Assembly: GCF_008831285.2 (NCBI RefSeq)
Contig: NC_045141.1
Location: forward strand, 18,658,848 to 18,722,847
DNA length: 64,000 bases
Source: Nymphaea colorata
Taxonomy: Eukaryota > Streptophyta > Magnoliopsida > Nymphaeales > Nymphaeaceae
Direction: 5' to 3'
In this document: positions 24,773-28,307 of the stretch, in pieces
Layout: each line of letters opens with the position of its first letter
Position numbering within the stretch: the stretch's first letter is position 1
The notes under the pieces: model-generated
The model's input: only the letters and a program-made list of their open reading frames with translations
What the model was told of the DNA's origin: nothing
Databases searched by the model: none
Made by a program: the position numbers and the translations under genes

Positions 24773-24807
24773 ATATATATATATATATATATAGAGAGAG
24801 AGAGAGA
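24773..24807. repeat. (AT)n(GA)n compound microsatellite
   Basis: AT dinucleotides span 24773-24793 and GA dinucleotides 24794-24807. This is the left border of an inverted copy of the Micron-like element at 24806-25137. A CT-rich stretch (24729-24759) lies just before it. Confidence 0.95.
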
Positions 24808-25137
24808 TTGGTTAAAAAGAGAACACTTTTACTTTTTTGCTAAAAATTTATTTCATAAAATATAAGTTTCCTAATATATTTATAAAAACTATGTTTATAA
24901 AAAAGCTTTGAATCAAGTTGTTTCTATGGAAAATGTTGATTTTTTTAGTATCAAAATATTGATGTTATGGGAGTCATTCATTTTTGCTTGTCATTAATAC
25001 ACAATTACAAACCAAAAAATAATCAACTTAATATAAATTTTGCATCAATCCTTAAGATAAGGTTATATTAAAAAAACACTTTAAATATCATATTTAAAGA
25101 GTTAGCTTTTGTTCTGGCCTATTGGTCTTGTTTATAC
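24806..25137 (-). mobile_element. Micron-like (TA)n-embedded element, family A copy 1 (inverted)
   Basis: This is a non-coding segment of about 330 bp bounded by (AT)n(GA)n on the left and (TA)n (25138-25181) on the right. Its reverse complement matches the interior of the element at 26363-26747: CTTTGAATCAAGTTGTTT here corresponds to AAACAACTTGATTCAAAG there. GATTGATGCAAAA followed by TTAAGTTGAT also recurs in both. The terminal inverted repeats are more decayed than in the other two copies. Confidence 0.6.
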
Positions 25138-25181
25138 TATATATATATATATATATATATATATATATATATATATATATT
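25138..25181. repeat. (TA)n microsatellite
   Basis: About 22 uninterrupted TA dinucleotides form the right border of the inverted Micron-like element. Confidence 0.95.
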
Positions 25182-26289
25182 ACACTTCATTCTACCTGAA
25201 CCTGAAACTCATTACTTGTCAGTAACTTTTTTTGCCAAATTAACTGCTCATAAGTGATGTCGATGTACAAAAAGCATAGTTTTTCTTAACATTTAATAAC
25301 CCTTTCTAGATGATTGAATATTTAATAGACATTACTTTTACATCGATGACAAAGCGTTTGAGCACGACCGCAGATGCCAGTAGTTAATTTCATAATAAAA
25401 CAATTATAGAAAGTACGTGCATAAAGTTTCAATGTTTTTACAAGCCAAAAAGTTTCTGGCGATTAATTTTTTAACTTGTTAATAAACATTGTGCGGTTGC
25501 TCTAGTAAATATAAATTATATAATTGATATCATTCCTATCGTATAATAACGACATTAATTTACTATTGCATTTTTTTTTCTAGCAAGGTCAAAAAATGAG
25601 ACTTAAGCAAAAGAAGAAGCATGGACCACATTGCATGTGCATAAAGCATCCAGACCATACATTTCATATCCACATTATCCATGTATAAAATTCTCTGACA
25701 TAAATTTATAACCCTAAAAGTTGATAAATTTTTATATTATATTGAAGCCTTTGGATGTCATTGTATTCATCCAGCCAAATTATATTGAAGATTATCTTAA
25801 ATAAATTTCCAATTTCTAAATTAGAAAAAAAACCGATACGCCGCCGACTCCGGTTTTTTGCGATTCTTTTTGTCGCACCCCCTCGATTTTTATAGGTGTA
25901 TACATTCTCTTCCTGCTGTCAAACGCGCCCTAAGATTTCTTCGGCATCTGCCTCCACGGAGGAGTCGATCGACGCGATTAGACTCAATAACAATAAGCAA
26001 ATCTTATTCTAATTAGGCGCGGGAATAATAAATCAAGCAATTAAACAGGTGTGATGGAGAGACACAAGGGAAGAGCATGTGCTTGTGGCCATGCTTAGAC
26101 ATGCCCTACGTATTCAATTTCCGCTTTTTTAGGAGCACCCACCATACTCTACAAGCTGTAAATTGGGCCTCTCCACGCTTGGGCATGTGGGCAGTCACTC
26201 CTCCACATGATCATATTCCACCATTCATTATAAAATATGGGTCACTTTTCAAGGTTATTCCATGCCAAATTAATAAAGACTTTGATATT
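25182..26289. other. AT-rich intergenic stretch with no gene seen
   Basis: No supported gene. A locally GC-richer island at about 25833-25985 (CCGCCGACTCCGG onward) differs in composition from its surroundings, but I could not assign it. Near the right end, the sequence TTAATAAAGACTTTG sits immediately before a (TA)n tract and recurs at about 27041-27055 after another. Confidence 0.4.
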
Positions 26290-26362
26290 TTATATATATA
26301 TATATATATATATATATATATATATATATATAGAGAGAGAGAGAGAGAGAGAGAGAGAGAGA
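26290..26362. repeat. (TA)n(GA)n compound microsatellite
   Basis: TA dinucleotides span 26290-26332 and GA dinucleotides 26333-26362, leading directly into the terminal repeat of a Micron-like element. Confidence 0.95.
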
Positions 26363-26747
26363 AGTTGGTAAAAACCAGACAGCTAGGTCAGGAATAAAAA
26401 CCCAGACCTTTTGATTTTGATTTTGATTTCTAAAGTGTTTTTTTGCAATCTAACTTTATTGATATGATCTTAAGATTGATGCAAAACATGCACTAAGTTG
26501 ATCATTTGGTAGACTTCAATGGTGTTTTTATAATAAGAAAAAAATGAACAGCCCCATGACATGGTAATAATAATAAAAAATCAATATTTTTCATTAAAAC
26601 AACTTGATTCAAAGCATGTTTTATATCAAAATGGTCTTTATGAATATATTAAGATGTTTATATTGTATTTAAAATAGTTTTGGAACAAAAAATCAATGGG
26701 TCTGGTTTTTATCCCTAGCCGAATTATATAGTTTTTACCAATTTCTC
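26363..26747 (+). mobile_element. Micron-like (TA)n-embedded element, family A copy 2
   Basis: A 385-bp non-coding element lies between (TA)n(GA)n and (TA)n (26748-26764). The left end reads GTTGGTAAAAACCAGAC, then ATAAAAACCCAGACC. The right end carries GGTCTGGTTTTTATC (26699-26713) and finishes GTTTTTACCAATT. The two ends form an imperfect inverted repeat of about 50 bp. Interior landmarks (GATTGATGCAAAAC, ACTTGATTCAAAGCATG) recur in the copies at 24806-25137 and 27930-28307. It resembles the rice Micron elements, which are known to target (TA)n microsatellites; kinship is inferred from the arrangement only. Confidence 0.7.
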
Positions 26748-26764
26748 ATATATATATATATATA
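26748..26764. repeat. (TA)n microsatellite
   Basis: A short TA run separates a family A element on its left from a family B segment on its right. Confidence 0.95.
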
Positions 26765-26955
26765 GTGTGATCAAAGTCATTCTTAACTTGCCAATTCTGG
26801 TTATTCCATTTGATATATTGTGATAGACAGATAAGAGGAAAATAAAGTGAAAAATGTGTGAACTAATACTAAATAATGAAAATGCTCACAACATTTTTTC
26901 ATTTTTTTCTCTCAACTATCCATCATGAATCCGACTTTGAGTACAATGATGCTGG
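26765..26955. mobile_element. Short (TA)n-bounded repeat family B, copy 2
   Basis: A segment of about 190 bp fills the gap between (TA)n at 26748-26764 and the (TA)n beginning at 26956. The block AAATGTGTGAACTAATACTA and the following AATGAAAATGCTCACAAC resemble the copy at 24281-24452. CCAATTCTGG here corresponds to CCAATTCACTGG there. No coding capacity. Confidence 0.5.
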
Positions 26956-27013
26956 ATATATATATATATATATATATATACATATATATATATATATATA
27001 TATATATATATAT
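26956..27013. repeat. (TA)n microsatellite with one interruption
   Basis: TA dinucleotides run from 26956 to 27013, broken by a C at 26981. Confidence 0.95.
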
Positions 27014-27752
27014 TTCATTTTTCAGAAATATTCCATAACAAATTAATAAAGACTTTGGGCACATAGGTACAAATGGTTGATTGGTTGTGAGCATGTGAGT
27101 CACATGGCAATGCTGATCTGATCTGCTGCCTCAAATTTCAAAGGCAATACGAGGGGATGGAATTTCAGTGCCAGCTTGGTGATCACGTGGTCTGCTGAGG
27201 CACAAGTACTTACAAGTTGCTTTGTATTTTTAACATATACAGTTCATAAGTCATCCAAGCTTGATCACTTTATATTTAAGATCTATGGATTTGATCGGAC
27301 ATGCTTTTGCTGGCATGATAAAAGATTCATAGTGAAATTCATGATTCATGGATCTTATAAGATCCGCAATTGGAATCCTTCTAAATTGAGAAAATGTTGG
27401 ATTCAAAATCAAAGGAAAAGAAGGGTTTGATCTTGAATCTATAAAAATGAAATATGAAATCTTACAAAGGACAATACTTATATGACTTAGTACAGTAGAA
27501 GTCTCTCTCGTGCATTATATTCTGCTTGGTTTTCATTTGAACCGTAGATGTGACCAACCCGCTGTTAAAGATGTGGCAGAAATAAATATTAAAAAGATAT
27601 CCAATTTTATTGGTGTGCAAGATTATTGTATATACCACCATTCATAAACACCAGAATAAATAATATTCCTTCGGACAAGAGCAACCCCTTTTAATTTAAA
27701 TCCAAATTTGGTGCTATGGATTTCATGAACAAATCCATTAATCACACACAGA

Positions 27753-27926
27753 CATATATATATATATATATATATATATATATATATATATATATATATA
27801 TATATATATATATATATATATATATATATATATATATATATATATATATATATATATATATATATATATATATATATATATATATATATATATATATAAA
27901 GAGATATAAGAGAGAGAGAGAGAGAG
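27753..27926. repeat. Very long (TA)n tract followed by (GA)n
   Basis: An uninterrupted TA run of about 146 bp (27753-27898), the longest in the window, is followed by a short A/G spacer and GA dinucleotides to 27926. It borders the third Micron-like copy. Confidence 0.97.
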
Positions 27927-27929
27927 GGG

Positions 27930-28307
27930 AAAGTTGATAAAAACCATACCATTTGGGCAAGGGACAAAAACGCCGTACTCTTTAAAATTATTATTGTTAT
28001 TTTCCAATCTAAACTTGTAGATATAATCTAATAGTGACTTTGGTGAGAAACATATATTAAGTTGATTGGTTTTTTACTTAAATAAAATTTTTAATAATAA
28101 AAAATGATTGACCTTATAACACCAAAGTTTTCATAGTAGAAATATCATTTTTTTTACAATAATGACTTGAAATAAAGCATAATTTATACTAAATTAGTGT
28201 TTGTAAACAAATTAGAAAGTTCAAAATTAATTTTAAAACAACTTTTAGTATGGATTTAGGAGGTCTGGTTTTTATCTCTTATGCAAATGATATATTTTTA
28301 TATATTC
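27930..28307 (+). mobile_element. Micron-like (TA)n-embedded element, family A copy 3
   Basis: The left end reads GTTGATAAAAACCATACCA and the right end includes GGTCTGGTTTTTATC (28262-28276), identical to a 15-mer in the copy at 26363-26747. The ends form an imperfect inverted repeat: ATACCATTTG on the left against CAAATGATAT on the right. Interior landmarks ACTTGAAATAAAGCATAA and TTAAGTTGAT match the other copies. The left border is the 146-bp TA tract plus GA run; the right border is only a short TATATATT plus a GA run at 28308-28318. Confidence 0.68.

Follow-up and report, generated by a model that had tools for sequence, protein, structure and literature searches.

Here we report three related short segments, copies 1 to 3 in order of position, in a 64,000-nucleotide stretch of the Nymphaea colorata genome (contig NC_045141.1, positions 18,658,848 to 18,722,847), hereafter the window. 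These segments are very probably non-autonomous cut-and-paste DNA transposons, namely foldback miniature inverted-repeat transposable elements (MITEs) of ∼380 bp, and members of a group of several subfamilies that inserts preferentially into (TA)n microsatellites. Analysis of the window together with the whole assembly (407.8 Mb in 783 contigs, 14 of them long) has shown the foldback anatomy of the elements, a terminal inverted repeat (TIR) with a doubled motif, wide dispersal, a strong association with (TA)n, frequent side-by-side copies and subfamilies that differ in age.

The similarity among the three copies is far beyond chance. Local alignment gave scores of 171 for reversed copy 1 with copy 2 (222 identities in 309 columns), 80 for copy 2 with copy 3 (212/318) and 84 for reversed copy 1 with copy 3 (217/326), compared with maxima of 40, 36 and 45, respectively, in 200 dinucleotide shuffles per copy pair. 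The original prediction was right about the coordinates and orientations of the segments, which form a partly inverted cluster within 3.5 kb, with copy 1 on the - strand. The inverted-repeat ends that it ascribed to the last two copies are clear in copy 2 and partly eroded in copy 3, and one has been lost in copy 1. The 15-mer GGTCTGGTTTTTATC, said to be an identical terminus of copies 2 and 3, is indeed common to both, with + strand matches in the window at 26699 and 28262 and none on the - strand; it is subterminal rather than terminal (∼30 bp in from the 3′ end), as the motif TAAAAACCAGAC occurs twice in the TIR. Open reading frames of at least 110 aa that touch the three copies all run through simple repeats, leaving the copies with no coding capacity.

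A consensus for subfamily A, represented in the window by copy 2, was derived from an alignment of 42 copies, comprising 40 loci from the genome search with copy 2 (the window's own included) plus copies 1 and 3. It is ∼380 bp long, its outer 47 bp form a near-perfect TIR in which both occurrences of TAAAAACCAGAC are found, and the double-motif TIR reads AATTGGTAAAAACCAGACACCTAGGTCAGGGATAAAAACCAGACCC. When compared with its own reverse complement the consensus is identical in 270 of 391 columns (69%), and copy 2 folded as a single strand gave z = -2.90, with 0 of 100 shuffles as good. Elements that are short, bounded by TIRs and without coding capacity have the build of (TA)n-targeting MITEs. 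Across the whole genome, the TIR 24-mer with up to 3 mismatches was matched 272 times in the forward and 272 times in the reverse orientation, compared with 0 + 0 for a reversed-pattern control.

The three copies are related foldback MITEs of three different subfamilies, differing in age. Searching the genome with copy 2 produced 1524 first-look candidates, the best 40 of which were scored; these lie on all 14 long contigs and, copy 2 itself excluded, are 79-87% identical to it. Copy 3 retrieved a different set of loci (best 40 scored of 1193 candidates) and copy 1 a third set (best 40 scored of 886 candidates), the relatives of copy 1 being known from the search listing. The subfamily-B consensus (23 copies, from 20 loci found with copy 3 plus the window) is 77% identical to the subfamily-A consensus and has the TIR GTTGGTAAAAACCAGACCACTTGGGTAAGAGACAAAAACCAGACC. 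Kimura two-parameter (K2P) distances to the subfamily-A consensus ranged from 0.036 to 0.21 among 40 A copies, with a mean of 0.127 and a value of 0.10 for copy 2; copies 1 and 3 lay further off, at 0.25 and 0.48, respectively.

Preferential flanking by (TA)n throughout the genome, a check set beforehand, was borne out. Our end sample consisted of 116 ends from 59 fetched loci and the window, each reached by the models and read from outside inward; a run was defined as a dinucleotide repeated for at least 4 units within 30 bp of the end, and as a control we drew 20,000 random windows of 30 bp from these sequences, keeping >300 bp away from any detected element. Dinucleotide runs were present at 95 of the 116 ends compared with 3.4% of random windows, and (TA)n at 64 compared with 1.6%; for the 46 copies in which both ends were scored, a run occurred at both ends in 23 and at neither in 4. 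Because the fetched loci had been chosen by BLAST rank, we added a flank-blind sample made up of the 50 genome occurrences of the exact TIR 16-mer GGTAAAAACCAGACAC. Within 30 bp on the outside, TATATATA, or (TA)4, was found at 26 of these 50 ends (62 overlapping matches collapsed), and on the inside at 1. Such preferential flanks characterise elements of the Micron, MuTAnT, SaTar and Ac-mMITE kind, and the habit had rightly been likened to that of Micron. In the window itself, (TA)n flanks copies 1 and 2 at either side. Copy 3 is bordered by GA runs left and right, with a long (AT)72 tract on the left as well; the TA and/or GA tracts predicted at every copy are present, the right-hand TA of copy 3 being only a short, eroded stretch. 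The lengths of long TA arrays may be affected by errors of assembly.

An explanation that merits serious consideration, although we judge it unlikely, is that there is no TA targeting, and that the elements insert into AT-rich DNA where their own ends, or gap repair, create the GA and TA tracts. The GA tracts do apparently grow at the tip, and TA lies outside GA in 22 of the 22 ends that have both. In Medicago, moreover, empty sites hold a mean of nine TA as opposed to ∼15 per flank at occupied sites amplified from ecotypes (PMC4486113), and empty sites of maize TAFTA elements are cited as having 6-8 bp of TA (PMC5907723). Two features of our own data also weigh against TA targeting: the 50 exact TIR ends include mutual duplicates, and among the fetched loci there were no empty sites of TA insertions, only occupied duplicated sites, so that the association could be due in part to TA growth that followed insertion. 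What argues for a preference for (TA)n is that the element tips, which on visual inspection are GAGAAATTGG, GGAAAGTTGG or the alternative GAGTGATTGG, contain no TA repeat from which TA growth could be seeded, and that at 15 of 42 GA-type ends no GA tract separates the element from the adjoining (TA)n.

One flank word, GGAACCGCTTTTGCATG, was tried as an empty-site family and rejected, as the four further copies that were read all contain the element. It has 110 genome matches with up to 2 mismatches (reversed control, 8), several of which share what is apparently one inherited element insertion. The sequence around it recurs in clusters on C4 (4.33-4.56 Mb), C8, C11, C13 and C591, which perhaps represent a clustered gene family.

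Growth of (GA)n from the tip of the element, rather than its presence in the target, is well supported, if not proven. An element that had inserted into a GA tract would be expected to show GA inward at only one of its ends, with TC at the opposite one. Reading inward, we found GA at 26 and TC at 3 of the 116 ends (binomial P 1.5e-5), and GA at 26 and TC at 1 of the 48 exact TIR ends read out of 50, with the limit that 26 of these 48 were read solely between TIR and TA. GA was read inward at both ends in 4 of the 46 two-ended copies, and the combination of GA with TC was seen in one, copy 3 of the window. The tracts also depend on the type of tip: GA adjoins 21 of 42 GA-type tips as against 0 of 13 GAGTGATTGG tips (Fisher P 0.0008), where the tip pattern can be satisfied by the tract itself, which weakens the former count and not the latter. 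The position of TA outside GA at all 22 ends with both tracts fits this reading as well. Seven places have a GCATG(T)CTTTAT-like left flank in common, with a GA-rich tract (17, 18, 18, 48, 28, 20 and 20 bp) between this flank and the TIR. We interpret these as duplicates of one insertion, four of which were read beyond the TIR, and they show that the length of the GA tract varies and that TA outside it is dispensable; (TA)n stands to the right of the element in the single copy read there.

The converse, that the GA tracts are target DNA and the elements entered compound (TA)n(GA)n microsatellites, we consider improbable. It draws on copy 3, whose two flanking GA runs lie on one strand, the arrangement that a GA target would give, and on the 61 ends with eroded or other tips, which show no strand bias (GA 3, TC 3); each of these points to target-derived GA in some cases. 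The seven shared-flank places, too, look as they would if the element had inserted at a GA/TA junction. As a general account it is opposed by the excess of GA over TC, by the mirror-wise GA tracts of four copies and by the lack of adjoining GA at the GAGTGATTGG tips. From the original picture of elements nested in microsatellites we thus retain the (TA)n setting, the GA tracts being probably no part of the target, though copy 3 lacks the mirror arrangement. A group of near-identical TIRs preceded by a G-rich run and then (GA)n was also observed (C8:741331, 1593422, 1654960 and 12449799, C13:16370194, C15:4644039 and C480:16564), and is perhaps a young or co-duplicated set.

With regard to superfamily, Mutator-like membership is likely by analogy, though unproven. 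Published elements of similar habit have been called Mutator-like from duplications of 9-10 bp, and some have autonomous partners (PMC4486113, PMC5907723, PMC8449440). Evidence of both kinds was sought here, and neither kind was obtained. An 8-10-mer common to the two flanks was found in 2 of 59 copies, in both cases derived from a neighbouring TIR (control means for shuffled pairs were 2.2, 1.4 and 1.0 for 8, 9 and 10 bases), and microsatellite flanks hide target-site duplications; of five further copies with ordinary flanks, the far end was clear in one (L118/L128) and doubtful in one (L110/L130), and neither of these two gave a clean duplication. The genome contains 141 matches to the Mutator-like element (MULE) domain PF10551, and when 30 of these loci were fetched with 1.5 kb flanks and scanned with the TIR models, no autonomous partner was found, only one TIR remnant. 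Between 130 typed MULE places (of the 141 matches) and 215 typed element places the nearest approach was 8.4 kb, on the outer side of the TIR.

The remnant (C3:1693528, locus L064, positions 65-103, E 4e-8) is a subfamily-B TIR that has been truncated and that adjoins a (CA)n tract. A FAR1-MULE-SWIM frame, intact and 660 aa long (positions 733-2715), has this remnant ∼0.65 kb upstream of it. We rejected this pair as the autonomous partner, since neither the locus nor the 3.5 kb adjoining it contains a second TIR. FAR1-type genes are usually domesticated transposases, and the remnant is therefore taken as a shortened copy near a host gene.

Membership of the Tc1/mariner superfamily, with a Stowaway-type TA duplication accounting for the flanking TA, is very doubtful. 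T or TA does directly adjoin many tips when these are read by eye. However, Stowaway TIRs begin with CTCCCTCC and have a single TA duplication, whereas the TIR described here starts differently, the flanks are often long (TA)n arrays, and some GAGTGATTGG tips have no adjoining TA (L017, L101).

In the mechanism that we favour, a transposase supplied in trans, most likely a Mutator-like one, would bind the duplicated TAAAAACCAGAC, cleave the DNA at the GA-type tip and integrate the element at TA-rich sites. The TA tracts of the target would then be lengthened by slippage in repair gaps, and the second microsatellite, (GA)n, would grow outward by slippage from tips that read GAGA.

A second member of the family was present within ∼1 kb in 15 of the 59 fetched loci, a count that includes two locus pairs that are duplicated regions and some loci for which a longer stretch was fetched on account of a neighbour in the search listing. 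Modular clusters of this sort are a feature of (TA)n-targeting MITEs; the cluster in the window is therefore not unusual, and it resembles the arrays described for SaTars. That one local segmental duplication produced all three copies can be dismissed, despite their proximity and the 43-bp and 46-bp stretches that recur between them, since these and a 24-bp inverted match are all that is shared by the DNA around and between the copies, and the three subfamilies have separate sets of best relatives and differing K2P distances.

The features of the cluster are listed in Table 1. Between its TA tracts we also observed a further dispersed repeat that has an inverted core (window positions 26839-26928, with a weaker copy at 24335-24380), for which the best 40 of 175 candidates in a genome search were scored; similar pieces occur in L023, L025, L042, L097 and L099. 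A AAATTAATAAAGACTTTG-like motif is found three times, once inverted, near TA tracts (26242-26284, 26770-26790 and 27014-27057), and these motifs are perhaps the ends of another short element containing a TA array. Elsewhere in the window, three adjoining open stretches at 51842-56152 were recognised, by eye alone, as frames of a Ty1/copia-type retrotransposon.

Table 1. Elements and simple-sequence tracts of the cluster, in window coordinates.
Feature	Positions	Strand	Basis
(TA)n then (GA)n tract at intact end of copy 1	24774..24806	.	read from sequence
Inverted copy 1, of the third subfamily; intact tip at one TIR, erosion into (TA)n at the other	24807..25137	-	nhmmer subfamily-A model E 1e-53; own genome match set
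(TA)n tract, other end of copy 1	25133..25181	.	
(TA)21 tract outside GA tract of copy 2	26291..26332	.	
(GA)n tract, from (TA)n to 5′ TIR of copy 2; interpreted as growth of the element's own GAGA tip	26332..26362	.	
Copy 2, near-full-length subfamily-A foldback element, TIRs ∼50 bp	26363..26747	+	
(TA)n tract right of copy 2	26749..26764	.	
(AT)72 tract left of copy 3	27754..27898	.	
(GA)n-rich tract at 5′ tip of copy 3	27910..27930	.	
Copy 3, older subfamily-B element; 3′ TIR eroded, then GA run on same strand	27931..28307	+	nhmmer B model (copy 3 included in model) E 3.7e-86; own genome match set

MITEs that nest in microsatellites are already known as a kind, and several published systems resemble the Nymphaea family closely. 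MuTAnT of Medicago truncatula is likewise a short foldback element with a mean TIR length of 47 bp, is found mostly in (TA)n, and is dispersed and divided into two subfamilies (PMC4486113). It differs in having an autonomous MULE partner, AutoMuTAnT, and in its 9-bp duplications, as indicated by the 14 copies, of 218, that lie outside perfect (TA)n (PMC4486113), neither of which was found for the Nymphaea family. SaTars, described from guayule, rice, sorghum and citrus, similarly comprise several families with (TA)n and other dinucleotide flanks, side-by-side arrays and many copies without target duplications (PMC5907723). In contrast, members of 11 of 15 guayule families have 10-bp duplications, autonomous MULEs with similar TIRs are reported, and the diverse non-TA flanks are held to complicate a TA-targeting model (PMC5907723), where in the Nymphaea family GA appears to be element-born. 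The pineapple elements Ac-mMITE-1 and -2 have TA on one or both sides in ∼74% of cases and GA or CT in 22% and 16.5%, are clustered and have no autonomous element in the published account, yet they number 53,014 and show 9/10-bp duplications at 1435 copies (PMC8449440). Micron (rSaTar2) of rice is alike by description, at ∼380 bp and with 492 of 510 copies flanked by microsatellites (PMC5907723).

The suggestion that the elements form an independent plant family holds in part, namely with respect to MuTAnT, whose published TIR mask, GGGGTTTGCTAGAACA, matched both of our consensus sequences at best in 9 of 16 positions, no better than shuffles, which places the family outside MuTAnT proper. According to the main text of a survey of 207 genomes, Micron is extensive in Poaceae and Rosaceae and absent elsewhere save in a few species, and that text makes no mention of Nymphaea (PMC12550479). 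Among the top-ranked matches listed from the open-access literature, none concerned such elements in Nymphaea, and the family appears to be new.

The mechanism by which such MITEs come to lie in microsatellites is debated, with target choice, repeat growth after insertion and recombination of circles having been put forward (PMC5907723). Our evidence for tip growth is a modest advance in this respect. With its mainly mirror-symmetric placement and its dependence on tip type, the (GA)n tract helps to tell element-born from target-derived repeats, and a simple TA-targeting model would face one objection fewer if GA is element-born. We propose, as a plausible though tentative account, that the GAGA tip of the TIR is a slippage seed from which (GA)n grows between element and target, and that a single target preference, for (TA)n, combined with growth at the tip suffices to explain elements beside several types of dinucleotide. 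The Nymphaea family would widen the range reported for elements of this kind. Its presence in a water lily would mean that the habit either dates back to, or evolved independently in, one of the earliest-diverging lineages of flowering plants.

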